Shown here: positions 9,699 through 43,525 of the stretch, one piece after another
Position numbering within the stretch: the first letter of the stretch is position 1
Layout: each line of letters begins with the position of its first letter
NCBI RefSeq assembly: GCF_038900055.1
Contig: NZ_JBBMQM010000001.1
Span: 1,116,001-1,180,000 of the forward strand
Direction of reading: 5' to 3'
Length of the DNA: 64,000 nt
From: Henriciella sp. AS95
Lineage (GTDB): Bacteria; Pseudomonadota; Alphaproteobacteria; Caulobacterales; Hyphomonadaceae
Notes under the pieces: model-generated
What the model saw: only the letters and a program-made list of their open reading frames with translations
What the model was told of the DNA's origin: nothing
Database searches by the model: none
Made by a program: the position numbers and the translations under genes

Positions 9699-11009
9699 AT
9701 GACGAGCCGCGACGAGACCGTTCAGCTGCACGAGACCTATCTTTCCAAGCACAAGCTTCCCCTGTTCAAGCAGTTCGGCTGGGACGTGGTGGAAGGCAAG
9801 CGCGAGGGCGTTTTCTTCTGGGATCTCGATGGAAAGCGCTATTTCGACTGCCATGTCTGCGGCGGGGTTTACAATCTCGGCCACCGCAATCCGAAAGTGG
9901 TGAAGGCCGTGCGCGACGCGCTCGACCATGTCGATCTCGGCAACCACCATCTCATGTCGTCGGAACGCTCGCGCCTTGCCAAGAAGCTCGTCGAGTCTGC
10001 CGGCGAGACATCCTCTGGCGAGCGCATGGGGCGGGTGGTCTTCGCCTCGGGTGGCGGCGAAGCCATGGATTTCGCGTTCAAGATGGCCAAGGGCTACACC
10101 GGAAAGTCGACAATCCTCTGCCTTGAAGGCGGCTATCATGGCCATACCGGTCTCTCCATGGGCGCAGGCGATGAGAAGTACACCGATGCCTGGAACTACA
10201 AACCCGAAGGGTTCGTGAAGGTCAGCCTCGAGGACCTCGACAGGATCGAGACCTTCTTCGACGAGGATACGGCTGCCGTGTCGCTGGAGACGATCCCGGC
10301 AACGCTCGGCATGAACGTGATCCCCAGAAAGACGATGCAACACATCCGCAAGGTGACGCGCGAGCATGGTGTCCTGCTGATCCTTGACGAGATCCAGACC
10401 GGTTGTGGCCGGTCGGGGCGCACTTGGGCCTTCCAGCATTACGATATCATGCCGGACATCTTCGCGACCGGCAAAGGCTTCTCAGGCGGCATCTATCCCA
10501 TCGCCGCGACCGTCTACAGGGATGAGATGGAACAGGTCTACGAGCAGAATCCGATGATCCACTTCTCGACCTTCGGCGGCAGCGAAATCGGATGCGCCGC
10601 CGCTGAAACCGTGCTCGACCATGCAACCGATCCTGACTTCCTGGCCCATGTTAATGCGCTCTCCGACTTTTTCCGGAACGCCGTGGAAGAGCTCGCCGAA
10701 CGGTCCAACAAGGTGGCCGGGCTACGTCAGATCGGCATGTTCCAGGCGATCGAATTCGTCGATGTCGCGACCTGCATTTCGGCTGTCGCCCGCCTCAACG
10801 AAAACGGCGTCTTCTGTGTCTTCTCCAACAATGACCGGGTCTGTGCGCAGTTCATGCCACCTCTGATCATGACGATGGAGGAGGCCGAGGAGTTGATGGC
10901 GCTGGTCGAGAAGAGCATCAGTGAGGCGGACGCGGTCGATCTGACCTCCTCGGAGTTCTTCAGCACCCAGACGGAAGCCCGGATCCGGAACGTCAATCGC
11001 CGCCTCTAA
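9699..11009 (+). CDS. Class III PLP-dependent aminotransferase
   Basis: A 436-residue fold-type I aminotransferase. It has the PLP Schiff-base Lys in TGKGFSGG (K259), LILDEIQTG with the pyridine-binding Asp (D230), GGGEAMDFAFK near the phosphate site, and GYHGHT. The ATG at 9699 is chosen because AAGGA ends 8 nt upstream; an ATG at 9690 would overlap that RBS. Members include omega-aminotransferases and glutamate semialdehyde aminomutases, and relatives occur next to or fused with APH kinases (as in ethanolamine-phosphate phospho-lyase-like proteins). The 40-bp gap after the kinase-SDR gene supports a functional pair. Confidence 0.88.
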   Translation: MTSRDETVQLHETYLSKHKLPLFKQFGWDVVEGKREGVFFWDLDGKRYFDCHVCGGVYNLGHRNPKVVKAVRDALDHVDLGNHHLMSSERSRLAKKLVESAGETSSGERMGRVVFASGGGEAMDFAFKMAKGYTGKSTILCLEGGYHGHTGLSMGAGDEKYTDAWNYKPEGFVKVSLEDLDRIETFFDEDTAAVSLETIPATLGMNVIPRKTMQHIRKVTREHGVLLILDEIQTGCGRSGRTWAFQHYDIMPDIFATGKGFSGGIYPIAATVYRDEMEQVYEQNPMIHFSTFGGSEIGCAAAETVLDHATDPDFLAHVNALSDFFRNAVEELAERSNKVAGLRQIGMFQAIEFVDVATCISAVARLNENGVFCVFSNNDRVCAQFMPPLIMTMEEAEELMALVEKSISEADAVDLTSSEFFSTQTEARIRNVNRRL

Positions 11010-13460: not shown

Positions 13461-14515
13461 TCGCCAGTCGCGCCGCCAGCCGGTCCGTCCCCTTGCGCAT
13501 CGCGGAAGCGTGACGGTGTCGTGCCGGTCTGCTTCCTGAAGGCCTTGATGAAGGCGCTCGTGTCGCAATAGCCGAGCAAATAGGCGATCTCACTGATCGA
13601 CATGGATGTTTCGGCAAGGTGATGGGTGGCAGTTTCGTGCCGGACCCGATCCAGAAGGTCGGTAAAGCTGACGCCGTCCTGCTTCAGTCGCCGCTGCAGG
13701 GTGCGAGACTGAATGCCCATGACGGCGGCGATGTTCTCAAGGGTTGCCGTGCCGCGCGGAAGAGACTGGCGGATGTGGTAGATGACATCGCCCTCAAGGC
13801 TTTCGCTCTTGGGTACGGCGGATGCCATGTCCATCAGATGGCGCTTGATGACGGGGAAGAGCTGCAGGTCCGCGAACGCGATCCGCCTGTTCTCATAGAG
13901 CCGGGGATAATAGATGGCATTTGTCGGCTGATTGAAGAGGGGGCGTACACCGAAAACCTGTTCGTAGGCGTCCATGCCTGCGATAGGATCATGCTCGAAG
14001 AAGACATCGGATGGCGTGGCCGGACGCTCGTTCAGCCGGTCGACGATGTTTTTCACATAGGCGATTGAGAACTCGGCGTCCTGCGGCCTGTCATCAACAG
14101 CAGGATGTGTAATCGCATATTCGACGCCGATATCTTCTTTCGTCTGCCGGAAGGCGAAATGGGTCCCGGTCTGCCATATCGTGGCGTGGGAGACGACGTT
14201 TCTGAGCGCGTCGCCAATCGTCGGAGAATTGAGGACCAGATAGCCGAAGGCCCCCCAGCGGGCCGGGTCCTGACGGCCGCCCACTTGCATTCCAATTGTG
14301 GCGCACTGCGTCGTTTCCTCAGCAGCCTTGAGTAGACGGGTAAATTTCGCCAGTTCGATCAACTGGTAGGGATCGGTGGAAACCCTCACATCCAGTCCGG
14401 CATCCCGAAAGACCGGTTCGGCATCCAGTCCGCACTTGCGAATGAAGGCCGCGATGTCACCTGTGGCGGCAGCACTGACGACAGGTATGGAGGAAGGCGC
14501 GGCCATGGCTTTCAT
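13454..14515 (-). CDS. AraC-family transcriptional regulator
   Basis: A 353-residue regulator. The N-terminal ~200 residues resemble the arabinose-binding-type (OruR/ArgR-like) domain. The C-terminal ~85 hold two HTH units (LENIAAVMGIQSRTLQRRLKQ and ISEIAYLLGYCDTSAFIKAFRK, the latter the classic AraC signature), ending in a Gly/Ala-rich tail. GGGGGAGGAAAC precedes the ATG at 14515. It is convergent with the TonB receptor and ends inside it. It likely controls the kinase/aminotransferase/receptor genes in response to a pathway compound (inference from position). Confidence 0.88.
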   Translation of the reverse strand: MKAMAAPSSIPVVSAAATGDIAAFIRKCGLDAEPVFRDAGLDVRVSTDPYQLIELAKFTRLLKAAEETTQCATIGMQVGGRQDPARWGAFGYLVLNSPTIGDALRNVVSHATIWQTGTHFAFRQTKEDIGVEYAITHPAVDDRPQDAEFSIAYVKNIVDRLNERPATPSDVFFEHDPIAGMDAYEQVFGVRPLFNQPTNAIYYPRLYENRRIAFADLQLFPVIKRHLMDMASAVPKSESLEGDVIYHIRQSLPRGTATLENIAAVMGIQSRTLQRRLKQDGVSFTDLLDRVRHETATHHLAETSMSISEIAYLLGYCDTSAFIKAFRKQTGTTPSRFRDAQGDGPAGGATGDQ

Positions 14516-14821
14516 CGTTTCCTCCCCCTTTGTTCAAGGCTCGTGAAATGGAAAACCACCGACAGCGTACAGTCCAGCGCTAATTCCGTCTTCGCCCAAG
14601 GAATCGCTCCCGTGCGTGAGAACCGGCTTCGAACACACCGGTCAGCTTCCTATGACCAGCAATTATGCAATCGCGTCGACAATAGCTTTTGTCGTGCGAC
14701 TGGGAACATGCTTGGTGCGCCGGCCCAGTACTTCGGGTGCTCAACCACCGATTCAAACTAGCGGCTTGTTCACAATCGCTCTTCGTGCCAACAAATATGA
14801 GTGGGACCAAGAGGGGTGGGT
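14516..14821. other. Intergenic region, no gene seen
   Basis: This region separates the AraC-type gene (leftward) from the four-gene membrane operon (rightward), so it must hold divergent promoters, but no convincing -35/-10 pair stands out. A small hairpin (CGACAA/TTGTCG) lies near 14678-14695. GAGGGG at 14811-14816 is the RBS of the next gene. Short frames here have no protein-like composition. Confidence 0.4.
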
Positions 14822-16249
14822 ATGTCGATCAATGCGATGGCGAAGAAGGTATTTCGCCCGAGGCACGATTATATTCCAGGTACGCAAGTATTCTCAGCGA
14901 TTGATGTTGACCGCATCAAAGACGAATTGAATCTGGGGGAGAAAGGTCGACAAGACGGAGCGGAGAATGTGCCGCCCCACGATGCGACGTCTCCCTCTTC
15001 AACTGAGCTCGAAATTCGTCGACGGTGTGACAACTGGAGAGGCACGACCCTCGAGGAGGCTCGTCGAGCTCTTGAGATCTACTCTGGCCGGGTAAAAGCG
15101 AGTAGCGAGGGACTAGAAGTCGCCAAGCTCCGTACAATGGCAAAGCGAGCCGGCCTTGCTCTCGAGCAAGAGGCGACTGATGAGGTTGCGCTGCTCATCC
15201 AGCCAGAGCGCGAGGTCAAGCGAAAGACCGAAGATTTTCGGCGCTTTAAAGAAGACCAGGGTATCGAGCGATCACCCCGGCCACCGTTAGATTTATGGAA
15301 GGCACTGACGCCCGTTGCGTTGGTTGCCCTATTAGAGATTGCGGCTAACTCCTATTTTTTCTTCGAAGCCGGAAACGACGCAGGAATATTAGGCGCAGCC
15401 CTGGAGGCGGTGCTCATTCCTGCAATCAACATTTCCATCTGTTGGCTGATTGTCTTTTGGAGCGTCCGCCAGCTTTGGAGACGCGAATTTCTCAAGAAGG
15501 CGATTGGGCTATTTGGCTTGGCCGGCTTTTTAGGGTTTGCAACGACCTTTAACTTGGGGGTCGCTCATTTTAGGGATGCGTTGTCGAGTTTCGATCCGGA
15601 TGCCGCGAAAGCGGAAGCTCTTACCACGCTGCTCAATGGTCCTTTTGATCTAGCATCAATGCAATCTTGGGTGCTCTTTGCGATCGGGTTTGCTGTCTCA
15701 GTCGTCACGATGGTCGACGCGCTTGCCTTTCGCGATCCGATCCCAAGCTACTCGCGCTATGACGCGTATCGACAGGAAGCCCAAGACGAATTCAACGATA
15801 AGCGTGCAGAGGCCGTAGAAGCAATCGATGAGGCTTTTGAGGCTCACACAAATGAGCTAGTCGCGACCCGCCAGCGCATAGCTAATGCTCAATCTGAAGC
15901 GATTGAAATCCAAAAGCGTGTTGAGCATCTCCAATCTGATCTTGCCGACTACGGGAACTATCTCCAGGCAACGGCAAATGAGTTGGCCGCAGCATACCGA
16001 GAGCAAAACGTAGCGGTTCGCACCGACCCTAGACCCGCGCATTTTGATCAACCGCTCTGGGAGCTAGAGCCTATGATACTCGTCGCCCCAGTTCGCGAGC
16101 TCGAAGAAGACATTAGTCAGCTCCGCGATGTCGAGAGCGGCCAGGATGTTCTCGAGAAGGGCTTAACTGAGCTCAACGGTCACTTGGATGCCGCTTACAA
16201 GCGCCTCAATGAACTCTCCTCCTTTGAGCTCGATGAGGCGGACTTGTAA
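14822..16249 (+). CDS. Four-TM membrane protein with coiled-coil tail (operon gene 1)
   Basis: A 475-residue protein of no family I recognise. The N-terminal ~160 residues are hydrophilic and helical. TM segments are at about 161-181, 193-216, 226-247 and 281-302, followed by a charged helical region (315-400) with coiled-coil character and a short acidic end. The ATG at 14822 follows GAGGGG; a GTG at 14801 is less likely. Its stop overlaps the next start (TAATG at 16247-16251), so it is coupled to the VWA-like gene. Grouping with a MotA/ExbB-like channel suggests a membrane-complex subunit (inference). Confidence 0.75.
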   Translation: MSINAMAKKVFRPRHDYIPGTQVFSAIDVDRIKDELNLGEKGRQDGAENVPPHDATSPSSTELEIRRRCDNWRGTTLEEARRALEIYSGRVKASSEGLEVAKLRTMAKRAGLALEQEATDEVALLIQPEREVKRKTEDFRRFKEDQGIERSPRPPLDLWKALTPVALVALLEIAANSYFFFEAGNDAGILGAALEAVLIPAINISICWLIVFWSVRQLWRREFLKKAIGLFGLAGFLGFATTFNLGVAHFRDALSSFDPDAAKAEALTTLLNGPFDLASMQSWVLFAIGFAVSVVTMVDALAFRDPIPSYSRYDAYRQEAQDEFNDKRAEAVEAIDEAFEAHTNELVATRQRIANAQSEAIEIQKRVEHLQSDLADYGNYLQATANELAAAYREQNVAVRTDPRPAHFDQPLWELEPMILVAPVRELEEDISQLRDVESGQDVLEKGLTELNGHLDAAYKRLNELSSFELDEADL

Positions 16250-17064
16250 TGGCTCGTCGCTCTTCAAGAAGTCGTCGTGCCCAATCGAAGGGTTCAAATC
16301 TTCACAAATTTGTTGTGGGTGGCGCGGCCATAATTGCTGTTTTGGTGCTTTTCGGAAGCGCGTTCCTGCGAGCCAATGCGCCAACCTTGGACGAGGAAAC
16401 TCTTTGCTCAGGTGCGGCCCCACCCCGCGTAACGCTGATTCTGGTCGACGCTACGGATAGCCTAAACGCAGTACAGCGAGCGTCGATTTCTAATCAAATC
16501 GATAGGCTCGTTGGTTCTTTGTTGGAGGGCGAGCGCGTTGAGCTGTTTGCCGTAAGTGACAAAGCTGACTTGCTAACGCCGCTTTTCGAAAAGTGCCGGC
16601 CTGGCGACGGCAGCAACGCAAACGTGGCGATTTCAAATCCTGAGAAGATCAAAGAGAACTATCAGTCGGCCTTTGTCGCTCCGCTGCAAAAGGCCTTCAA
16701 TGACTTAATCGTAGACGAAAGCTCCAACCACACGCCGCTGATGCGGGCTATCCAGGCTGCTTCGGTTAAGGGGTTTGGTCGGTGGCCCGACACGACCGAC
16801 CGCCGCCTCATCGTCGTTTCCGACATGCTCGAGTATGACGCAGAGCGTAGCCACTACAGCCCAGCAGGAATCGAAGAGACGGATTTTGATACGCCCTCGT
16901 ACAGCCGTCTAAAGACCGATCTGAAGGGCGGCCAAGTGGAGCTTTGGTATATTCGCCGCACCACACGAAGCGACGTTCAGGGTGCCAAGCACATAGAGTT
17001 TTGGCAGTCCTACTTCGCGCACCTGAACGGTTTGGTGTCTCGCGTATTTCCAGTTGAGGGATGA
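16249..17064 (+). CDS. Membrane-anchored VWA-like protein (operon gene 2)
   Basis: A 271-residue protein. It has a basic N-terminus (RRSSRSRR), one TM segment (about 20-41), then a Rossmann-like region starting with VTLILVDATDS (61-71). D67-x-x-D/S71, T162 (HTPLM) and D192 (VVSDMLE) sit where a von Willebrand factor A domain places its MIDAS metal ligands, though the first motif is DATDS rather than DxSxS. Topology by the positive-inside rule puts the domain in the periplasm. It overlaps gene 1 and is 3 bp from gene 3. A metal-dependent adhesion or assembly role in the complex is plausible but unproven. Confidence 0.7.
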   Translation: MARRSSRSRRAQSKGSNLHKFVVGGAAIIAVLVLFGSAFLRANAPTLDEETLCSGAAPPRVTLILVDATDSLNAVQRASISNQIDRLVGSLLEGERVELFAVSDKADLLTPLFEKCRPGDGSNANVAISNPEKIKENYQSAFVAPLQKAFNDLIVDESSNHTPLMRAIQAASVKGFGRWPDTTDRRLIVVSDMLEYDAERSHYSPAGIEETDFDTPSYSRLKTDLKGGQVELWYIRRTTRSDVQGAKHIEFWQSYFAHLNGLVSRVFPVEG

Positions 17065-17067
17065 AGG

Positions 17068-18264
17068 ATGGCGATTTCTGAAGCTCAGAAAGTTTCGCGC
17101 TCCACTAGCCGGTTCCAGGACAGGACAGGAAAGTGGATGTTTGCAGTTTTCGCAGTGGTGGGCGCTCTAACGATCTCGGCCATCGAAGTTACTGAGTTCA
17201 ACAAGCTCTACTCGATGTCGATCTGCGTGGCACTGTTGCTGGCATACGCGATGGGTACCTACTTTATACCTTCGATGCGGGCGCGCGCCGACCAGATCGG
17301 TGACAACGTTTATTATCTCGGTTTGCTCTACACATTGATGAGCCTGGCCGCAGCCATTATCCGGCTTTCCAACGATCCAAACGCCGCAGACGCAATTCTC
17401 CGAAACTTTGGTGTCGCACTCGTCACGACGATTGTCGGATTGATGCTCCGAGTCGTTATTTCTCAGATGCGCGATGACCCAGCAGATGTCGAACGAGAAA
17501 CGCGTGCAAGCCTCCTGTCGCTCTCTCGCAGTTTTCGGACGGAGCTTGAGCATAGCGCGAGAGAGCTTCGCAACTTTCAGGTTGGCTTGAAACAATCAGT
17601 CGACGAAGCGATCGAAAGCACACTCGCTCGCACCACTGAGGCGATGGAAAAGACGCTCGACCAACACAAGCGAACGGTCGAAGCGCTCGATATGGATGAG
17701 GACTCCTTTGTCGGTCCAGTTCAAGCTGCCATGGACAAGCTTAATGCCGCATTTGAGCGCCATGCGGATGAGTTAGACAAGCAGTCGGACCGAATAAAGC
17801 AAGCGATGGACGGCACAGAAAAGCTCGGCGAACAAGCAGAAAAGTTCGACGCTGTTTCCAGCAACCTGTCCAAGGCAGCACACGACCTCAAAGACAGTCT
17901 TGGGAATATAGCGGCTCTCGGAACGGCAACAGAGTCAATGACCGCTGCAATTGCTGGGCTTTCGGAGGATTCCGAGAAAGCCCGAACATCCATCGTCGCT
18001 CTGGGGGAGACAGCTCAAAGTCGTCTCGATCACGCCTTCGACCAAATTGACCAACGAAACAAAAAAGACTTGTCGGAGGTCTCCGATATTCTGTCCTCCA
18101 TCAAGAAGACGGTTGGCGAATTAGACGCCGTGTCTGAGAAGTTTATGAACAGCGGAAATCTTTTCGCCGAACGCATGGCGGAAAGCGAGAAGTCTGTCGC
18201 CAAAGTTCGTTCGGATCTTGCGGACATGGCCGAGTACATTGTTAAGCGCATTGAGAAAGCATGA
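17068..18264 (+). CDS. MotA/TolQ/ExbB-like (ZorA-like) channel protein with long coiled coil (operon gene 3)
   Basis: A 398-residue protein. TM segments are at about 24-39, 48-68, 81-99 and 113-132, the last with ALVTTIVGL (117-125), the kind of Thr-rich pore motif seen in TolQ/ExbB/MotA and ZorA proteins. Residues ~140-398 are continuous charged helix with coiled-coil character, as in the cytoplasmic tail of ZorA. GAGGG precedes the ATG. The stop overlaps the next start (ATGA at 18261). Expected role: pentameric inner-membrane stator coupling ion flow to movement of the partner. The family assignment is by pattern, not alignment. Confidence 0.72.
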   Translation: MAISEAQKVSRSTSRFQDRTGKWMFAVFAVVGALTISAIEVTEFNKLYSMSICVALLLAYAMGTYFIPSMRARADQIGDNVYYLGLLYTLMSLAAAIIRLSNDPNAADAILRNFGVALVTTIVGLMLRVVISQMRDDPADVERETRASLLSLSRSFRTELEHSARELRNFQVGLKQSVDEAIESTLARTTEAMEKTLDQHKRTVEALDMDEDSFVGPVQAAMDKLNAAFERHADELDKQSDRIKQAMDGTEKLGEQAEKFDAVSSNLSKAAHDLKDSLGNIAALGTATESMTAAIAGLSEDSEKARTSIVALGETAQSRLDHAFDQIDQRNKKDLSEVSDILSSIKKTVGELDAVSEKFMNSGNLFAERMAESEKSVAKVRSDLADMAEYIVKRIEKA

Positions 18265-19490
18265 GCTCGGAACTCATCAACGAAACGCGCCAGTCCTATC
18301 GCCGCGGACTTGTTTTGGGCTTTACCGTGGCAGAGGCTCTTTTGCTAATTCTCTTTGGAATTCTGCTCGCTCTGGGATCAATTATCGTCACGAAAAATCA
18401 GGAACGCGATGAACTGAAAGCGGAGCTCAATCGTGCGCAACCAAAGCTTGCGGCAATCGACACTCTGAAGGCTTCTTTTCCTTCGGACGCTGAGCAAACC
18501 TTCGACGATTTTTTTGGAGAACTCACACTAGCTATTGAGCAACGAGACAGGGCTCAAGCAAAGCTCGCTAGTTTGACGGAGAAGGTCAACAAGCAGCAAA
18601 GAGATCTTGAAGAGTTACACCGTACCAAGCGGATTGTGGAACGGGCGTCGGAGAATGGCAAGAGCTCTGCGGATGCTCTGCAAGAGTCAGCTGCACGCGG
18701 AGAGGTTCTGAACGAAGTTTTTCCTTCGGAGGTGTCTCCCGATCAGGTGCAACAAGTGCTCAATATTGCCAAGCAATTGGAAGAGCTTTTACCGCCAGCA
18801 GAGAGTGCCGAACGACAAGCGGCGGAAGACGCTGCTCTAAAAGAAAAAGCCGACATCGAAGCGATGCGCAAAGCTCTAGAAGACGCCGAGCGGGCTCAGG
18901 ATCGACTCGAAGGACAATTAGCCAACGCATCGAGGCGATTGAAGCAAGATGGGTTGGGGTATCCTGCCTGCTGGGCGCGAAAAGTGGGAACGCCAGACTA
19001 CATATTTGATATCGCTCTGCGCCCCGACGGCATCGTGATTTATGACAATGCGCTACCTAGATGGGAAGCAGAGCAAGAAGCTTTGCCGCTCTCCAGCTCA
19101 ATGTATGATCAGCCTCTATCTTCAAGCCAATTCCGGATGCTCACAAAACCGCTTTTCGATACCTCAGAAGCACGAGACTGCAGGTTCTTCGTGCAAATCT
19201 ACGACATGACAGGGCCTCAGGATAAACTGCGCTATAAGCAGTTGATGCAAGCCGTGGAAAGCCACTTCTATAAGTATGAGGTTTCTAACAGAAGCACCTG
19301 GAAGGGACCTCGCTACAGTGCACCACAATCAGTTGCTCAAGAAAGTCATTCAGATGATGCAAGCGTACAGGCAGATGGTTATAAAACTCAGGATGGCCAA
19401 GGAGCGCCGACGTCTTTCGAAATCGATGCAGACATTACAGGCGACCGTCCGTCGACTAGCCCGCCAGCGATACCCGACGAACAAGATTAA
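18261..19490 (+). CDS. Single-TM coiled-coil partner of the channel protein (operon gene 4)
   Basis: A 409-residue protein. One N-terminal TM (about 16-43, FTVAEALLLILFGILLALG) carries an acidic residue (Glu25) inside the membrane helix, as MotB/ExbD/ZorB partners carry Asp. Coiled coil runs ~45-110 and ~180-230. A compact C-terminal domain (~233-342) has Cys237, Cys307 and a CRFFVQIYDMTG strand; the end is a Pro/Asp/Ser-rich tail. I see no OmpA-type peptidoglycan-binding signature, so it is not a canonical ZorB. Start overlap with gene 3 (ATGA) suggests fixed stoichiometry. No terminator hairpin is clear, but a T7 run follows at 19549-19555. Confidence 0.7.
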   Translation: MSSELINETRQSYRRGLVLGFTVAEALLLILFGILLALGSIIVTKNQERDELKAELNRAQPKLAAIDTLKASFPSDAEQTFDDFFGELTLAIEQRDRAQAKLASLTEKVNKQQRDLEELHRTKRIVERASENGKSSADALQESAARGEVLNEVFPSEVSPDQVQQVLNIAKQLEELLPPAESAERQAAEDAALKEKADIEAMRKALEDAERAQDRLEGQLANASRRLKQDGLGYPACWARKVGTPDYIFDIALRPDGIVIYDNALPRWEAEQEALPLSSSMYDQPLSSSQFRMLTKPLFDTSEARDCRFFVQIYDMTGPQDKLRYKQLMQAVESHFYKYEVSNRSTWKGPRYSAPQSVAQESHSDDASVQADGYKTQDGQGAPTSFEIDADITGDRPSTSPPAIPDEQD

Positions 19491-19564
19491 GCTACTTGGC
19501 CGAATAACGAAACAGATATGGCGAACGATCAGAGCGTAAGCCGACAGGGTTTTTTTCTGAGAGC

Positions 19565-19648
19565 TGGTGCCAGAAGAGGACTCGAACCTCCACGTCGGGA
19601 GACACACGGACCTGAACCGTGCGCGTCTACCAATTCCGCCACCTGGGC
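19565..19648 (-). tRNA. tRNA-Leu(CAG), with apparent one-base deletion in the acceptor stem
   Basis: On the minus strand the 84-nt sequence starts GCCCAGGTGGCGGAATTGG, has anticodon loop TTCAGGT (CAG), a long variable arm, T-loop TTCGAGT and encoded CCA. The 3' acceptor strand has only six bases (TCTGGC) between T-stem and discriminator A, so base C4 is unpaired; the expected strand would contain GGG. Either the gene is impaired or one base of a homopolymer was lost in sequencing. Its 3' end faces the four-gene operon. No integrase is nearby. Confidence 0.8.
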
Positions 19649-19806
19649 AATCCGGTTGCGAAGGCGGGTTGATACGGCCCGCGTGAGACAAGGTCAACGG
19701 CGAATTCCAGCGAACTTTCGGGTCTCTACAACTCAAAAGACGTCGGGCCAAATTTTGTTACTGGGGTCGGTCACCCCGCGCGCAGTCGAATACACTGCAT
19801 TGGTAC

Positions 19807-22800
19807 CTAAGTGATGGCAATTACTAGCAAGATCGCCATGATAGTGGAAACCATCCAAGCTAGGTAAAGTGGCCAGTCATGGAACTTGCGCGGTGTTGCT
19901 GAGTCGGAGGTACTGGGCTTTTCAGTGGTACCAGCGTGGGAGTTGCTTCCAAGCCCCGTAGGTGTTTCTTCAACTAGGTCCAGATCTTCAGAAATCTTGG
20001 CCTGGTCCACAATGCCAACTTCCTGATCCCCAATCTCTTTTAAGTCGTTCTGCGCAGTTTTCAGCTCGACGTCCGCCGGAAATCCCAATTCAACGAGGTT
20101 CCTCATGATTTGCGATTGCTCACCAAATATTGCGAAGCGAATACAGGTCGCCGCAAATGCCGGTTCATCTAACGCGAATTGTCTCAATCGACGCTTGTCC
20201 ACCAGTTCGATAATCGATTTGCGCCCAGACAGGATCGCGTAGCACAACGGAGATGGTCTATTTCTCTTTGAATACAGCAAGATATCGGTGTCATCCTTAA
20301 CTAGACGGCGGACAATTTCGACCGAACCAGAAGCACACGCAGTCTCCAAAACAGATCGATTGTATCGATCAAGCTTTTCATAATCTTTTTCTTCAGCGAA
20401 CTTCGATAGTAGGTCGAACGCTTCAAGTCTGTTGAAATGAGCAGCCGTGTGCAACGGCGACGCTTTGGGCGGAGCGACGCTAACTTCTGTCATGCCGAGC
20501 TCAATAAGCCGCTTTAAAGTATCCAGATCATTCTCAGCGACAGCGCCAGACAAGGCGCTCGGATCAGAGCAGATCCTGTTTGAGTTCGCTTGCTGGTCCA
20601 AGACCGGATAATCTTCGAGGGGCGTGTTCAACTGGCGCTTGAGCAAAGCCTCAAAAGTCGCCTTTGCTTCGGCCTCCGCAGCTTTGCCATTCTTCGACGC
20701 TTTCGGTATCGCCCGGATAGCCGAATGTAATGGTGTTCTACCCGCTGAATTACACGACCTCAGGGCTTCGTAGGCAGCCGTTGGTTCGGTCTCGAACAGA
20801 ACATCAACACACGCTGAACGTCCGCCCGCGGCCGCACTGTGCAAGAGGGAATCACCTGATTGTGGGGACCGGATAGCTGCCACCTCGGGATGTGCCAAGA
20901 CCATTTGGCGAAGGGTATCTGCATATCCGTTATACGCGGCAATGTGGGCTGGCGTACGTCCAGATTCCAACTTTTTAACCTGCGGCGTGTTTTCTTGAGG
21001 GCTGGCCGGATCGGAGCCTATATCGAGTAGTCTGGCAATAACATCTGGGGAGGACATCTCAGCGGCTACATGCAGCGGGGTCTTCCCCACTTCATCAGCT
21101 TGGGTAACGAGCATTCTTAGCTCATCTGCAGTGGCGCCTTCCAACAGCGCATTCATAGCCAAAATGCTGTCCTTGATAATGCAGAGATGCAAAGCATTGC
21201 GTCGGCCTTGCTGAACGGCCGTCCGGCGAGCCCCTAGTCTCGTCAGCAAGCGAATTGAATCATCAGCATCAGCTTCAGCGGCAGCAATCAGGGGCGTTCG
21301 ATCATACCCCCCGCCGTCCTCGGTGGAATCGGACTTTTCAACCAGGTCCGGAATACCCCGCCCAACTTGGATTGCGCGCCCAAGGAGCTCGGTATCATTC
21401 ATCCGGGCCAGCTCATGAACAAGGCTAACCTCTTCGCCAAGTGCAATGTAAAACTGTTCATCGGTCGCAAGGTCAAAAACGCGATGCCTTGCCGTTTCAT
21501 TGGGAAGAGAGGCGGCTTGTCTTAGTCGCCACGGTGTAAGTTGAAACCTTCCGCCGTGGACGTGATCTAGGATCGCTAGGAGTGCTTCAACGTTTCTTGA
21601 CGCTAAAGCCCAGTCCAACGGTGTAAAATCGTTGTCGTCCTTGGCTTCGAAATCAGCGCCAGCTTCGAGAAGCCGACGAACAATTCCGCGTGTCGCTTCT
21701 GCGGAGTCCGCGTGCCAGAATTTCGCGGCGAGGTGAAGGGCGGTAAGCCCTCCGAGCATTCGGCTGGGCAAAATCTCGGAGACGTCTGGACGGCCACAAA
21801 AATAATCTACGAACGCTGCTCGGCGGTACTGGGCCGCAAGATGCAGAGGGTTGCGGTTCTGGGAATCCAAAGCATTGCCCTGCATTAGTTGCGCGATACC
21901 GGTCTTGCTCAATCGCTCTTGCATGACTTCCAACACCCTGTCAGCGCCATAGCCAGCGGCAATTCTGAATGCTTCAGGGAAAACTTTCTTGCTATCTAGG
22001 AGTCCGAAGCTCTTGAGCACTTGCATGCAGTGAGAAGCATCTCTGCGCGCCGCAAAAATCGTCAACGTGTCGTCTTTGTTAGGCTCGCCTTTCGTTTGCG
22101 AGTTCTCGAGCGGGTATCGTGCGCCCAGTTTCGCCTTCAACACACCCTTGCAGAGTTCGGCTAACGCGGGGGCATTATCATTCATGATGGCATGATGAGC
22201 CGGCAGATACCCTCTCTGATCCGGCGACATCCGCTTATCGTCGAGTTTCGCTAGCGCGCGGATCATTCTCGTTGCTTGCCAGCGGGGTGCATGCGCCGCT
22301 AGATGAAAAGGATTCGCTCCCGGTAAGGCATTTGCATAGTTGTTGATCTTTGAAACGTGCTTGATACCTAGCGCGCTGTATATCCGCAAAACGCTGTTAA
22401 CCACCGCAACGGATCCGCCACGAGCTGCATAATGAAGTGGCGTCCAGCCTCCACGAGAAACCAGCGGCGCGCTTCCAAGCTCGGATGATCTCACGAACCT
22501 TATGCGTTTCCAGTGCATGGTCTCCAGCTTGTCAGAAGCGACCTGTAGCAATCGGGCTTTCTGGGAGAAAGCTAGCAAGTGAAGGATACTCTGACCGCGA
22601 AGATTCCGACTGAATGGCTGCGATAGAGTATTGATCAAGAGCTCAACTGTATTGTCCATCCCGCGCTCAGCAGCCTGCATGATGAAAGGTGGGTTCATCG
22701 GGTTCGTGGTCTTCGGCACGCGCGAAGACAGAATGGTGATAGCGTCGCCTTTAACGTTTTGGGCTTGCTGAACAGCCTGGAATGCGACGAGATCGTCGCC

Positions 22801-25128
22801 CGCCTCTAACGCGCTCTGCAGTATTTTTTTTAGAGTCGCAGGGTCGCTTTCAGAGGAGATGGAGCCAAACAATTCAAGTCGCAGCCAGTCCAAATCCGTG
22901 AGCCGATCCTTTCCGCGCGCCGCGGTGTCCCAAGGCCCTGCCGCACCCCAAGCTCGATACAAAAAAGCCCAAGACTCGCGCTCTTCGTCAGTAGGAGTTA
23001 CCCCATCTCGTTCTCTGTGATTTCTAAGTCTCCGATAGGCCGCCAGTCTTTCGATTTCCATCGACGCCGCCTTTTCGGCAATAGGCCAATGTTCCAGCAG
23101 CAGGCGGTGGGAGAGTCCGATATTGCGCTGTTTGTCACGCCGGAGGAGCCTGACGTTCACGAAGCGTTGAACCAGAGCCGGTCCGTCTGCTCCTAGTGCT
23201 TTCTCAACACGCCTTTGATTTGCGGTACGGCAAGCTAGGCGCCGTGCCGAAAATTCTTGCTTAGCCGATAAGCGCCCCGAAGCGGCGGCACCATTGTCCA
23301 CGACCAGCCAACTGAGAAGACTCGACAACATTCTGAGGCCTTCCGCCTCAGCTTGGGGGCGATCGGATACGCTATCGTAGCCAAGATCGGTTCTGAGAAA
23401 GCCAAAGAAAGCCTGGTCAGCCAAGTGCGCGATAGCTTTTTCTGGCTCCACCATCATATCTGGAGCAATCTGCACTGGAGGGCGGTCTTGTAGAAATTGT
23501 TCGCGCCACATTCGGCGCGATCTGCCATCACGCCGGGCTGGCACGAGGCTACTCATTTCTTTACTTATTCTCTTCTGGCTCGCCTCCGCGGTCATCTGCA
23601 TAGCAACTGCTACGAGTGTTTGAGTCGATCCATCCCGATCTTGGTTAGACTGAAAGAGGTACTGAACTTTTTTCTTAAGGATGTCTTTCGTGTCGTCCCG
23701 GAGCACCATGCCGCAGGCCAAAAAGCACGCCTGGTGTGCAGAAATTATCGGTGTCGGCTCTAATGGAAAAATTTCCATTGGTCGCGAGCCTTCAAGAAAT
23801 CCTAGTTCTTGCCACTTATGTACAAAGCCCGAGGAAACGTCATCAATACGGTTAGTGTCGGAAATCGAAACGACTAACCAAATCGCATGCGCTTTCGTGA
23901 GATAGTCTAATAGGTCAAATATCTGCTGCCAACGCGCCGCCGTCGCTACGTCTTCGCTCTGAAAGGCTTGTTCGACCTCGTCTAGAAGGAGAAGAATCTT
24001 GGACGGGTAATTTTCCATTCTTTGTTTGATCTGGTCGAGGTCCATCGTCTCCGACAGATCCATATCGAAACCCTGCTTTAGAAGCTTCAAGAAAGCAGGA
24101 AGGCGTGTCGCATGGCGTTTCGAGTGACCGTCAAAGCTGGCTTCTATGTCTTGTACTGAAACTACGAGGGGTTCTACCGAAAGCTCATCGGCAAGCGATC
24201 TCAGCCTCGAATTCGGGTTCAAAGCCGTCGCGGAGAGGCCCGCATTAAGAAATGAGGTTTTCCCAACGCCGCTCCTCCCCGACAGAAGAATAGACGTTTG
24301 CAAGGTATGCGAACTACTCTCGCCACAGCTTTCGAAGAAATTGAAAACGTCGCGGATTTCCTCGTCTCGACCGAAGAAAAGCGCCGCATCAGATATATCG
24401 AAGTGCTCCAGGCCTTTGAACGCCGCTTCCACGTCCGCAGGTCTTGTGCCACGAAGGTGCTTGCCTAGGTCGGCCTCAAGCTGAAATTGAAACTGCTCAG
24501 GGGTTTCAAAGTACCGCGTAGCGCGGCCAACCAACCAGTTCTGGACCCTAGCCATGCATTCGATTTGAGAACCGTAATAGGCCTGCTGTTCTGCATTCAA
24601 GAATCCGCCGCAGCGCTCGGTATAGTCACGTAAATAAGACCCAAATCCAAATCGCCTCGCCGAGGCCACCAACTGGGGAGCAACATCGGATGGCGGAGGA
24701 GCCTTAATGTAAATCAGACATTTTACATGGTCAGAAGCGAGCGCATCTATCAGTTCATACAAGGTGCCGGTGAGCGGAACCTTATGAGGCGAGGGGTAGC
24801 CAGCCTGGCCCGGCCAATCGAATAGTTCCGATAGCGGTTCAAGATATTCGGCGACTTGTGTCGGTATCGAGGCATCCGGAGGAAGCGGGAGACCGACCCG
24901 TTCGCCAAGTATGAAAACCGCGACTTCGGTTGAATCCCCTCCGGCGCGAGGGATATTTTCTTGGTAGACATCCGAATAATCTGAAAGCCGATCGTCTTGT
25001 TCCCATACGTAAGGACTGAAAGACTTGGTTCGGGGGCCAAATTCGGCACTGATACGATTTACGGCGCGACTTGCTCGCTGTCGTTCAAGACGCATGTCGC
25101 CGGACGAACTGATGAATACCGCGCCCAA
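19807..25128 (-). CDS. DUF4062-like / STAND NTPase / ankyrin-repeat protein with C-terminal TM anchor
   Basis: A 1773-residue protein. Residues 1-~150 begin VFISSSGDMRLERQRA, like the DUF4062 (TIR-related) N-terminal domain of conflict-system proteins. Next is a STAND-type NTPase with FFGRDEE (251-257), Walker A GRSGVGKTS (284-292) and Walker B KILLLLDEVE (D383, E384). From ~890 to ~1680 there are many ankyrin repeats (e.g. GGWTPLHYAARGGS, KTPLHVAAEMSSPD). A single hydrophobic helix near 1750-1771 ends the chain, suggesting tail anchoring in the membrane with the rest cytoplasmic. The only start that keeps VFISS is TTG at 25128 after AGGGGGAGG. It is convergent with the four-gene membrane operon. 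A sensor/effector role is inferred. Confidence 0.8.
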   Translation of the reverse strand: MGAVFISSSGDMRLERQRASRAVNRISAEFGPRTKSFSPYVWEQDDRLSDYSDVYQENIPRAGGDSTEVAVFILGERVGLPLPPDASIPTQVAEYLEPLSELFDWPGQAGYPSPHKVPLTGTLYELIDALASDHVKCLIYIKAPPPSDVAPQLVASARRFGFGSYLRDYTERCGGFLNAEQQAYYGSQIECMARVQNWLVGRATRYFETPEQFQFQLEADLGKHLRGTRPADVEAAFKGLEHFDISDAALFFGRDEEIRDVFNFFESCGESSSHTLQTSILLSGRSGVGKTSFLNAGLSATALNPNSRLRSLADELSVEPLVVSVQDIEASFDGHSKRHATRLPAFLKLLKQGFDMDLSETMDLDQIKQRMENYPSKILLLLDEVEQAFQSEDVATAARWQQIFDLLDYLTKAHAIWLVVSISDTNRIDDVSSGFVHKWQELGFLEGSRPMEIFPLEPTPIISAHQACFLACGMVLRDDTKDILKKKVQYLFQSNQDRDGSTQTLVAVAMQMTAEASQKRISKEMSSLVPARRDGRSRRMWREQFLQDRPPVQIAPDMMVEPEKAIAHLADQAFFGFLRTDLGYDSVSDRPQAEAEGLRMLSSLLSWLVVDNGAAASGRLSAKQEFSARRLACRTANQRRVEKALGADGPALVQRFVNVRLLRRDKQRNIGLSHRLLLEHWPIAEKAASMEIERLAAYRRLRNHRERDGVTPTDEERESWAFLYRAWGAAGPWDTAARGKDRLTDLDWLRLELFGSISSESDPATLKKILQSALEAGDDLVAFQAVQQAQNVKGDAITILSSRVPKTTNPMNPPFIMQAAERGMDNTVELLINTLSQPFSRNLRGQSILHLLAFSQKARLLQVASDKLETMHWKRIRFVRSSELGSAPLVSRGGWTPLHYAARGGSVAVVNSVLRIYSALGIKHVSKINNYANALPGANPFHLAAHAPRWQATRMIRALAKLDDKRMSPDQRGYLPAHHAIMNDNAPALAELCKGVLKAKLGARYPLENSQTKGEPNKDDTLTIFAARRDASHCMQVLKSFGLLDSKKVFPEAFRIAAGYGADRVLEVMQERLSKTGIAQLMQGNALDSQNRNPLHLAAQYRRAAFVDYFCGRPDVSEILPSRMLGGLTALHLAAKFWHADSAEATRGIVRRLLEAGADFEAKDDNDFTPLDWALASRNVEALLAILDHVHGGRFQLTPWRLRQAASLPNETARHRVFDLATDEQFYIALGEEVSLVHELARMNDTELLGRAIQVGRGIPDLVEKSDSTEDGGGYDRTPLIAAAEADADDSIRLLTRLGARRTAVQQGRRNALHLCIIKDSILAMNALLEGATADELRMLVTQADEVGKTPLHVAAEMSSPDVIARLLDIGSDPASPQENTPQVKKLESGRTPAHIAAYNGYADTLRQMVLAHPEVAAIRSPQSGDSLLHSAAAGGRSACVDVLFETEPTAAYEALRSCNSAGRTPLHSAIRAIPKASKNGKAAEAEAKATFEALLKRQLNTPLEDYPVLDQQANSNRICSDPSALSGAVAENDLDTLKRLIELGMTEVSVAPPKASPLHTAAHFNRLEAFDLLSKFAEEKDYEKLDRYNRSVLETACASGSVEIVRRLVKDDTDILLYSKRNRPSPLCYAILSGRKSIIELVDKRRLRQFALDEPAFAATCIRFAIFGEQSQIMRNLVELGFPADVELKTAQNDLKEIGDQEVGIVDQAKISEDLDLVEETPTGLGSNSHAGTTEKPSTSDSATPRKFHDWPLYLAWMVSTIMAILLVIAIT

Positions 25129-25274: not shown

Positions 25275-25464
25275 TAAACCGCATTCTGCGATCAAGTTCT
25301 AGCAGATCTGACGAAAATGGCGGTTAGAGACTTTCGACGAAAATTGCGGGAGGTGCAGGGAAAATCGGGCGCGCTGAGACTCGAGTCCATGAAAAAGCCC
25401 GCCAGTGGCGGGCGATTTGGCGACGTCCCGGATCTGGTCTTCAAATCAGGGGCCCAAGTGGCGG
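25275..25464 (-). repeat. 190-bp direct repeat, copy A (tRNA-Ser downstream sequence)
   Basis: Identical by eye over 190 bp to 62537-62726, in the same orientation. In copy B this is the 3' flank of tRNA-Ser(CGA) plus its last six bases, including the intrinsic terminator (here 25392-25413, reading leftward: GCCCGCC/GGCGGGC stem then T5). The tRNA itself is absent here; an IS6-type end takes over at 25463. A third, diverged copy is at 42526-42710. Confidence 0.9.
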
Positions 25465-26277
25465 TGTTGTCAGACTAATGCGAAGTCGTCTCTGTTTTCG
25501 AAGAAGCAAACGCAATTAGGCGGCCAGAAGCTGGCGCCATTCGAAGAGGGCGGCATCCCGGTTCTTTTTGAAGCGGGTTCTTGAATTGAGGTGACGGTCT
25601 AGATTGAAGTGATTGTGAAACGAAGCGTGGGTCGAAGCGAACTTTTGTAGATTGCCCATCTTCGGAATCGGGACATTGTTCGCTCCCGTCGTCGGAAGGG
25701 CAGGTGACTATTCTCAGCCCGATTGGAGAGATGTCGACCTACCTCCTGGCGATCGATATTTCCGATCTCCTTCATCGCTGCGCCGTACGATCTTAGCCGA
25801 TCGGTTACGACTGTCCGCGGTGCGCCGTAGCGCTTCATTGCTTTTTTTAAAAATCTCAAGGCCGCTGATTTATCTCGTGTTTTCGTGACATAGCTTTCGA
25901 GCACCTCGCCTTCATGATCGACGGCACGCCAAAGATAATGGGTCACGCCATTGATCTTCACGTAGACCTCGTCGAGGTGCCAGCGCCAGTGCGTGACCTG
26001 ACGAAGCTGCTGAGATCGACGTTTCCTAATCTCTCCTGCAAACATTGGTCCAAACCTATTCCACCAGTAGCGTATGGTCTCGTGACTGACTTCTACACCT
26101 CGTTCGTGAAGCAGGTCTTCTACGTTCCGGAGCGAAAGCGGAAACCGGACATACATCATCACCGCAAGACGTATTATTTCGGGCGAAGTCATGAAATAGC
26201 GAAAGGGGCTCTTGGATATAGACTAAACTTATCCAGATCCACCTAGGCGCTCAATGCCGATTTAGTCTGACAGTGCC
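25463..26277 (-). mobile_element. IS6-family insertion sequence, degraded copy 1
   Basis: An 815-bp element. The ends read GGTGTTGTCAGACTAA (25463) and, inverted at 26277, GGCACTGTCAGACTAA, matching in 12 of 16 positions. It holds a broken transposase gene very like the intact copy at 42.8-43.5 kb. No 8-bp target duplication is seen (CAAGTGGC before, TTTCATGG after). It appears inserted into an older IS6 element whose right part remains at 26278-26480, and its left end abuts the tRNA-Ser-derived repeat. Confidence 0.85.
25516..26219 (-). pseudogene. IS6-family transposase, start codon lost and frameshifted
   Basis: The product is ~90% like the intact transposase at 42783-43466 by eye: SPFRYFMTSPEIIRLAVMM-type N-terminus, HLDEVYVK, TDRLRSYG and RAENSH of the DDE catalytic core. 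Two lesions are visible. The expected ATG is ATA at 26217-26219, and one base is missing near 25660 (compare CCCATCTTCGGAATC with CCCATCCTTTGAAATC in the intact copy), so the last ~45 residues are out of frame. The catalytic core is otherwise conserved, so inactivation looks recent. Confidence 0.85.
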
Positions 26278-42525: not shown

Positions 42526-42710
42526 ACCGCATTATGAATTCAGATCCTAGGAGATCTGACTAAGATGGCGCTCAGAGACTTCCGCCGAATATTGCGGGAA
42601 ATGCATTGAAAAGTGGGCTGCACAGACTGCAGCCCAAGAAAAAGCCCGCCAGTGGCGGGCGATTTGGGGAAGTCCCAGATCTGGTCTTCAAATCAGGGAC
42701 TGGGTGGCGG
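42526..42710 (-). repeat. Diverged third copy of the tRNA-Ser flank repeat (copy C)
   Basis: It aligns with copies A and B over about 185 bp but with many substitutions. It keeps the same leftward terminator (42639-42660, GCCCGCC/GGCGGGC then T5) and the motif CTGGTCTTCAAATCAGG. Between, it has its own hairpin (GGGCTGCA/TGCAGCCC). An IS6 end follows at 42709, as for copy A. Confidence 0.75.
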
Positions 42711-43525
42711 TGTTGTCAGACTAATGCAAACTCGTCTCTGCTAGACCGGAGTTGAGTGCGTTTAGGCGGCCAGAAGATGGCGTCATTCGAGGAGGGCGGT
42801 GTCTCGGTTCAGCTTGAAGCGAATTCTTGAATTGAGGTGCCGATCAAGGTTGAAGTGGTTGTGAAACGAGGCGTGAGTCGAAGCGAACTTTTGTAGATTG
42901 CCCATCCTTTGAAATCGGGACATTGCTCGCTCCCGTCGTCGGAAGGGCTGGTGACTATTCTCAGCCCGATTGTTGAGATGTCGACCGACCTCCTGGCGAT
43001 CGATATTTCCGACCTCCTTCATCGCTGCGCCGTACGATCTTAGCCGATCGGTTACGACTGTCCGCGGTGCGCCGTAGCGCTTCATTGCTTTTTTTAAAAA
43101 TCTCAAGGCCGCTGATTTATCTCGTGTTTTCGTGACATAGCTTTCGAGCACCTCGCCTTCATGATCGACGGCACGCCAAAGATAATGGGTCACGCCATTG
43201 ATCTTCACGTAGACTTCGTCGAGGTGCCAGCGCCATTGAGTGACCTGACGAAGCTGCTGGGAACGGCGCTTCCGGATCTCGCCTGCGAAGAGTGGCCCAA
43301 ATCGGTTCCACCAGTACCGGACTGTCTCGTGGCTGACTTCGATTCCGCGCTCGTGCAACAGGTCTTCTACGTTTCTAAGCGAGAGCGGGAAGCGGACATG
43401 CATCATCACAGCGAGCCGAATGATCTCGGGCGAAGTCATGAAATAGCGAAAGGGGAACTTGGCCATGCCAAGCACAGTAGGGCGGTTAGCTATCCGCTCT
43501 CAAGCCAAGTTCTTCTGACGATGCC
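42709..43525 (-). mobile_element. IS6-family insertion sequence, intact copy 2
   Basis: An 817-bp element with ends GGTGTTGTCAGACTAA at 42709 and the partly matching GGCATCGTCAGAAG inverted at 43525. It encodes one full-length transposase. No 8-bp target duplication is seen (TGGGTGGC left, CTGCTGGG right), so the copy has probably recombined since insertion. It lies between the small-gene array and the TetR/catabolic block. Confidence 0.85.
42783..43466 (-). CDS. IS6-family transposase (DDE)
   Basis: A 227-residue transposase. The N-terminus FRYFMTSPEIIRLAVMMHVRFPLSLRN-type helices form the HTH, followed by the DDE catalytic core: HLDEVYVK (Asp), TDRLRSYG (Asp) and NRAENSHQPFRRRER (Glu). The length and spacing match IS6/IS240 transposases. 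The start is ATG 43466; a TTG three codons upstream is possible. It is complete, so this copy may still be active and can provide transposase in trans to the broken copy at 25.5-26.2 kb. Confidence 0.92.
   Translation of the reverse strand: MAKFPFRYFMTSPEIIRLAVMMHVRFPLSLRNVEDLLHERGIEVSHETVRYWWNRFGPLFAGEIRKRRSQQLRQVTQWRWHLDEVYVKINGVTHYLWRAVDHEGEVLESYVTKTRDKSAALRFLKKAMKRYGAPRTVVTDRLRSYGAAMKEVGNIDRQEVGRHLNNRAENSHQPFRRRERAMSRFQRMGNLQKFASTHASFHNHFNLDRHLNSRIRFKLNRDTALLE

Follow-up and report, generated by a model that had tools for sequence, protein, structure and literature searches.

Four adjacent genes of Henriciella sp. AS95, here called g1 to g4 (14822-19490, forward strand), form a real and conserved operon. 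Our best reading of this set, which we place slightly short of an even chance, is an undescribed Zorya-like trans-envelope motor that most likely serves as a defence system; no prior account of the four-gene set was recognised in the literature that was searched. The operon was studied within a window of 64,000 nucleotides, i.e., the whole stretch of DNA analysed (C1:1116001-1180000 of a 3.87 Mb genome), and coordinates given below are those of the window unless another locus is named.

The initial annotation had described four tightly coupled forward genes and a convergent ORF of 1773 codons, and the ORF list bears out both descriptions, including the overlaps and the gap. The first gene, g1, occupies 14822-16249 and encodes 475 aa (its frame is open from a GTG at 14801, which corresponds to 482 aa with the stop at 16249). 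It is followed by g2 (16249-17064), which overlaps g1 at 16249, by g3 (17068-18264) after a gap of 3 bp, and by g4 (18261-19490), which overlaps g3 at 18261. The reverse ORF spans 19807-25128. A tRNA-Leu (cag) gene on the reverse strand at 19566-19649, overlooked in the initial annotation, lies between g4 and the reverse ORF and outside the system. Genus relatives carry a similar tRNA gene with a short flank, and collinearity with a genus relative stops at 14494, just 5' of the operon.

An alignment of g3 was used to scan one genome per species over 84,980 species, which yielded 120 pattern matches. Relatives are encoded at 91 of these, of which 80 were kept as loci L007-L086. Four plasmid loci (L087-L090), drawn from the 24 plasmid records with a g3 match, were added, and g1 to g4 were located with iterative profiles at the resulting 84 related loci. 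The order g1-g2-g3-g4 is found at 77 of the 84, with spacings of at most 30 bp between g1 and g2 (77/77), g2 and g3 (77/77), and g3 and g4 (71/77); because ORF starts were set mechanically, overlaps may be overstated. These values indicate that the four genes are a single conserved unit, in line with the tight coupling described initially. Among the seven loci without the full set, L037, L051, L073 and L077 are interrupted by contig ends, and the profile search did not find g1 or g2 at L022, L086 and L082, the last of which also ends after g3. All four plasmid loci examined carry the four genes, as do all three loci from the viral collection, one of which lies on a contig of the same length as that of L021. 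At L022 (7396-11044, Sphingobium cupriresistens), phage capsid and prohead protease genes precede a shortened g3, an arrangement that would fit insertion of a prophage-like element into the operon.

The g3 protein has four hydrophobic segments, delimited by eye at approximately 24-44, 47-67, 81-103 and 110-133, and a long C-terminal coiled coil. It had been described as a MotA/TolQ/ExbB-like channel, for which the profile matches are borderline. The corresponding model, PF01618, scores 20.3 bits in the protein scan, under its cut-off of 22.9, and 22.9 bits in the genome scan, where it is marked as over the cut-off; it is matched at E<=0.05 by 9 of 26 g3 sequences. Yet a model of putative phage holin family 2, PF23778, scores somewhat better: coil models aside, it ranks first in Pfam for the window's g3, with 27.1 bits under its own cut-off of 32. 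It is matched at E<=0.05 by 7 of the 26 sequences and appears in the precomputed annotation of 3 of 27 proteins. Ten residues are invariant in all 26 sequences: D79, Y82, Y83, G85, F114, G115, A117, T121, G124 and R128. When a profile of the g3 membrane part was searched against 349 ORFs, two proteins that match ZorA_4 under its cut-off aligned in register (E 0.013 and 0.018); the best match in that search, L184 (E 0.0015), aligned mainly across the last helix. An hhalign comparison of the membrane part with a narrow set of TolQ sequences lent no support (probability 1.3). The ZorA models of PADLOC cover residues 129-393 of g3 only (best E 6.4e-6), and NF033917 matches residues 84-276 with E 8e-4 and 18.4 bits, its cut-off being 500; with neither is ZorA recognised over the membrane, MotA-like part. 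By its sequence, g3 is thus best treated as a weakly matching candidate for a channel of the MotA/TolQ/ExbB type.

The g4 protein consists of one TM helix, a coiled coil and, at about residues 230-350, a C-terminal domain that is not OmpA but of a kind we label 'CRF'. The glutamate noted earlier inside the helix, E25, is invariant in all 58 aligned sequences, which confirms that claim, and the protein is, as judged from its sequence, a MotB/ZorB-like one-TM partner. The further claim of a partner without OmpA describes the window's copy, in which neither OmpA (PF00691, Pfam, E<=1) nor a ZorB model (PADLOC) was found, but not the relatives, since 50 of the 81 g4 proteins at related loci have OmpA-type motifs. 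Classified by motif over the 84 loci, the C-terminal part is OmpA-type in 50, 'CRF' in 26 and neither in five (two of them short ORFs), and g4 is missing from three. PF00691 is matched over its cut-off by g4 of L087 (E 4e-7) and L064 (E 1.1e-7) and below it by g4 of L090 and L045; no match at E<=0.1 was found in g4 of L011 and L033, which have the same flavour as the window. Two further tips occur. At L055 (4976-6337, Halieaceae) g4 ends in TonB_C (PF03544, E 2.4e-12), and at L064 (11322-13010, Gemmobacter straminiformis) a natural fusion places the g4 TM and OmpA parts and then an SNase domain in one ORF; this SNase part scores 19.2 in Pfam, just under the cut-off of 21, and 4e-16 with our own profile.

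For g2, the initial annotation had proposed a membrane-anchored VWA-like protein, and the structural comparison agrees. An AlphaFold2 model built from 59 sequences has a pLDDT of 91.8 and comprises an anchor helix (16-42) and a VWA domain that is predicted to be periplasmic. Searching the PDB with Foldseek gave 167 matches at E<=0.001. The first of them bears the title B19V capsid (E 1.5e-6), and the matches to VWA domains include 1shu (E 4.5e-6), with TM-scores of 0.40 for the query and 0.56 for the target. On the strength of this model we are confident that g2 is a membrane-anchored VWA protein. A sequence-profile search of the PDB gave no match, and no PADLOC, NCBIfam or Pfam model matches g2 at E<=1, which accords with the earlier remark that a VWA subunit in such a set is not known from any named defence system. 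The complete MIDAS motif is DxSxS..T..D. In 62 aligned g2 sequences, D67, S/T69 and S/T162 are present in all and D192 in 60 (N in two), the window's own residues being D67, T69, T162 and D192; position 71 is variable. C53, D67, D70 and C116 are invariant in all 62. Because a basic N-terminus precedes the single helix, the sequence suggests that the VWA domain lies on the periplasmic side, and the invariant cysteines would fit an oxidising compartment. By eye, the alignment shows no conserved acid in the g2 TM.

Its neighbour g1 is an all-helical membrane protein, whose AlphaFold2 model has a pLDDT of 92.2. Judged by eye on the model, hydrophobic helices lie at approximately 158-183, 188-213, 223-256 and 280-303, and the fourth is followed by a 90-residue, coiled-coil-like helix (310-399). 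Foldseek found no PDB match for the model at E<=1e-3.

A predicted exported nuclease is linked to the operon, which is a new observation of this analysis. An SNase-type gene is found anywhere in the flanks at 34 of the 84 loci and is the sole frequent neighbour family, the next families reaching nine. Within 1 kb it is present at 32 of 85 loci (a count that includes the window, which has no SNase gene adjacent to the operon). Because L024 and L064, two special cases, are added to these 32, the relatives without an SNase gene within 1 kb number 50 of 84, and some of their contigs end early. In terms of density, there are 33 copies in 152 kb near the operon and 6 in the 921 kb of outer flank, so that the gene is 33-fold denser near the operon (binomial p 1e-22). 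The DGDT, R, PE and R columns, which we take to be the catalytic residues of staphylococcal nuclease, are well kept among 34 proteins, near and far (D in 34, R in 33, E in 33, R in 34), and 33 of the 34 have a hydrophobic N-terminus by our own cut-off. The gene also accompanies two of the three viral-contig loci. In the window's own genome, three SNase-domain genes are found elsewhere.

The reverse ORF at 19807-25128 does encode a STAND NTPase with ankyrin repeats (nSTAND1 E 4.2e-20, Ank_2 E 1.3e-55, both Pfam), as had been described, and a hydrophobic segment is visible by eye at its C-terminus; the DUF4062-like start also ascribed to it has no Pfam match at E<=1. It had further been proposed as the fifth member of the system, in which the STAND-ankyrin protein would be sensor or effector of the motor. 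Its position and the C-terminal segment are what speak for this. Against it, no STAND homologue occurs at the 84 related loci, the gene matching only itself among the ORFs of 90 loci and the window, so that co-occurrence elsewhere holds for g1 to g4 but not for this gene. Partial matches exist in 11 other genomes of 299 (best E 7.8e-12), which do not include any of the four further motor-bearing genomes, and in four plasmid records; a distant plasmid homologue stands without the operon, and in the window the tRNA-Leu gene lies between this gene and the operon. The STAND-ankyrin gene is best regarded as separate from the operon and unlinked to it, and we consider the five-gene system extremely improbable. 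The distant homologue, on a Sinorhizobium meliloti plasmid (L160, 6816-12998), lies beside a patatin-like phospholipase gene, with which it possibly forms an effector pair of its own.

The distribution of the four-gene set is patchy. Strong g3 matches occur in five of 299 genomes of the order, and g3 is found in 3 of 105 genomes of the family; other g3 matches in the 299 genomes have E 4e-9 or weaker and fall mostly on the coil, one of them (G171, E 1e-7) covering residues 75-129. By comparison, 120 of the 299 genomes have g1 and 122 have g2, the 120 lying within the 122 as read from the lists. Each of the 18 motor-less stretches inspected has g1 next to g2 and lacks both g3 and g4. Two of these are in the window's own genome (G000:C1:3492158-3494223 and G000:C1:2538443-2540754, L091 and L092), the latter very similar to a pair, L127, of genus relative G011. 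After another motor-less pair, at L132, lies a gene (9832-10278) for a 148-aa protein that is TerB-like by eye.

In a tree of g2 that comprises 48 copies from operons and 17 from motor-less pairs, a single supported branch holds 15 of the latter. Operons of alpha- and gammaproteobacteria are intermixed with starred support; the row of the window itself is long and uncertain. Given the motor-less pairs and this mixing, the sequences indicate that g1-g2 occurs as a two-gene module without the motor and that the four-gene form spreads sideways. Since g1-g2 is widespread without the motor, an older and possibly housekeeping role is suggested for it. No g3 match was found in 50,697 phage records, a result that is neutral for the defence reading, and 2.9 million viral contigs gave three related matches only.

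Proximity to known defence genes, a check proposed in the initial annotation, was assessed with a PADLOC scan that covered 285 of 346 eligible neighbours, counting as strong, by family name, matches with E<1e-50. Fifteen were obtained: ThsA, pAgo, IetA, IetS, AbiEi, AbiEii (twice), SduA, five PDC types and two methyltransferases; the IetA/IetS and AbiEi/AbiEii counts are not independent, because they are likely pairs from one system. Among 109 neighbours of motor-less pairs, used as control, there was one strong match, a methyltransferase. The difference (15/285 against 1/109) has a Fisher p of 0.037, or 0.014 without methyltransferases, with a single control set of other composition and a count in which one protein matching two families would enter twice. 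A modest enrichment of strong defence-gene neighbours is therefore suggestive only, at a borderline p. RepB and resolvase appear among the neighbours at 3/140 each.

In the excerpts of PMC11890865 and PMC8565338 used here, Zorya consists of ZorAB with ZorCD, ZorE or ZorFG, and the TM acid of ZorB is D24. The ZorAB-like layout attributed to the channel pair is supported: as in these excerpts, a multi-TM A-subunit with a long coiled-coil tail is paired with a one-TM B-subunit, which bears a periplasmic OmpA-type domain in most relatives, and Zorya resembles the present set also in having a nuclease partner at many loci and a patchy distribution. The differences are several. The TM acid of g4 is Glu where the excerpts give D24, the tip of g4 can be non-OmpA, the membrane part of g3 is unrecognised as ZorA, and g1 and a VWA protein stand in place of the Zor companions. 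The absence of ZorC and ZorD/E noted earlier was reproduced and extended: PADLOC assigns none of the five window proteins to ZorC, D, E, F or G at E<=1, and these families are likewise missing from the 25 listed with E<=1e-10 for each of two scans of the 285 neighbour proteins. The nuclease is an exported SNase here, as against the probable HNH ZorE or helicase-like ZorD of the excerpted accounts. In terms of sequence, the set thus differs from Zorya in both its ZorA subunit and its companion genes.

A second comparison is offered by motor-driven vWA force transducers. In the excerpt of PMC12204202, some of these sets combine tolQ with a TPR gene, a tolR-like pair and a vWA transducer, whereas in others tolQ is accompanied by vWA proteins that double as the B-subunit and carry a TM aspartate. 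Those sets and the present one have in common a vWA protein that is tethered to the IM and encoded next to a TolQ-like motor gene. Unlike the sets in that excerpt, the present one has a separate B-subunit, g4, a g2 TM with no conserved acid by eye, and g1 and often SNase as companions. The layout of an A/B-subunit membrane motor is shared more generally with TolQR-Pal, ExbBD-TonB and MotAB, and one relative's g4 even bears TonB_C; two extra subunits (g1 and the VWA protein), a patchy distribution and a long C-terminal coil on the A-subunit set the four genes apart.

From these features we infer channel function, sensing, activation and defence in the following way. The four proteins, encoded by genes that spread horizontally, would form a trans-envelope machine of the MotAB/TolQR/ZorAB type that is probably driven by protons, with g3 as A-subunit and g4 as B-subunit of an ion channel-motor in which the TM Glu25 carries protons. 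On the periplasmic side, g4 would end in a tip that can be exchanged, being OmpA-type in most relatives and a different domain in the window, and g2 would display its membrane-tethered VWA domain there, with g1 as its helical membrane partner. When an incoming phage or a conjugating element disturbs the envelope, g4 or g2 may sense the disturbance; ion flux through g3/g4 would then drive a conformational or rotary change in the coiled-coil tail of g3 and in the g1-g2 module, and this change would activate an effector, probably the exported SNase-type nuclease in roughly four of every ten relatives, where it would act in the periplasm. The earlier label of a conflict system is plausible because of the patchy distribution, the exported nuclease partner and some defence-gene neighbours, except for the STAND part of it. 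A more specific version of the mechanism is tentative and, as a whole, somewhat unlikely: a Zorya-like PMF-driven machine, to which a VWA/helical sensor pair has been added, would detect envelope penetration and release or activate the exported SNase, so that incoming DNA would be cut in the periplasm, ahead of its entry into the cytoplasm. The g4-OmpA-SNase fusion would then be part of the machine in one chain, and the g4 tips (OmpA, the other domain, TonB_C, SNase) interchangeable sensors or effectors.

The same genes could instead encode a general envelope force-transducer of the Tol-Pal or motor-vWA kind, used in maintenance, division, adhesion or stress rather than defence, with SNase as a co-transferred envelope enzyme. 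TolQ-like motors with IM-tethered vWA proteins are known across Proteobacteria and other phyla, according to the excerpt of PMC12204202, and both the abundance of g1-g2 pairs in the order, mostly motor-less, and the TonB_C end of the L055 g4 point the same way. We regard this as possible but not probable: a clear motor gene is present in just five of 299 genomes of the order and also on plasmids, the nuclease linkage is 33-fold over the flanks, and named defence genes lie nearby. That linkage can also be taken to suggest a nucleic-acid scavenging or DNA-uptake machine, in which environmental DNA would be cut by the exported SNase and taken up with energy from the motor, as an exported nuclease adjoins a probable energised envelope motor. 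Besides SNase, no neighbour family exceeds 9 of the 84 loci, and 50 loci are without SNase within 1 kb; the uptake machine is accordingly given little credence.

Mobility raises another alternative, namely an exclusion or competition module by which mobile elements (plasmids, integrative elements) act against rival elements and not in host defence. Plasmid records with g3, RepB and resolvase neighbours and the three viral-contig matches are consistent with it, but the phage records are without a match, only three related matches were found in all the viral contigs, and the proposal is mechanistically near our main reading; we consider it improbable. Finally, the better score of PF23778, which is matched by 7 of 26 members, would allow g3 to be a holin-like membrane protein, not a motor subunit, and the set a pore or killing module. 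The invariant TM Glu in g4 and the OmpA-type tips of most relatives fit a MotA/MotB pair, PF01618 also matches 9 of the 26 members, and the four genes are tightly conserved, all of which makes the holin-like protein very improbable.

If the reading as a Zorya-like defence motor is correct, it adds to Zorya a related branch with a nuclease that acts outside the cytoplasm, and it ties to defence the VWA proteins that appear in the excerpt of PMC12204202 as motor companions of unknown function. The relatives would also amount to a set of natural exchanges in which one motor bears different tips, and with these the sensing of an envelope breach by ion-driven motors could become testable, and the more widely spread motor-less g1-g2 pair would be a lead to an envelope process.

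Elsewhere in the window, two stretches about 17 kb apart (25459-26207 and 42705-43525) are both about 80% similar to the same IS6/IS240-like element of a relative, and the first contains DDE_Tnp_IS240 (E 1e-36). Between them lie a DKNYY gene and an LRR-like gene; the latter scores under the Pfam cut-off and is present in one of 29 genus genomes, its own.
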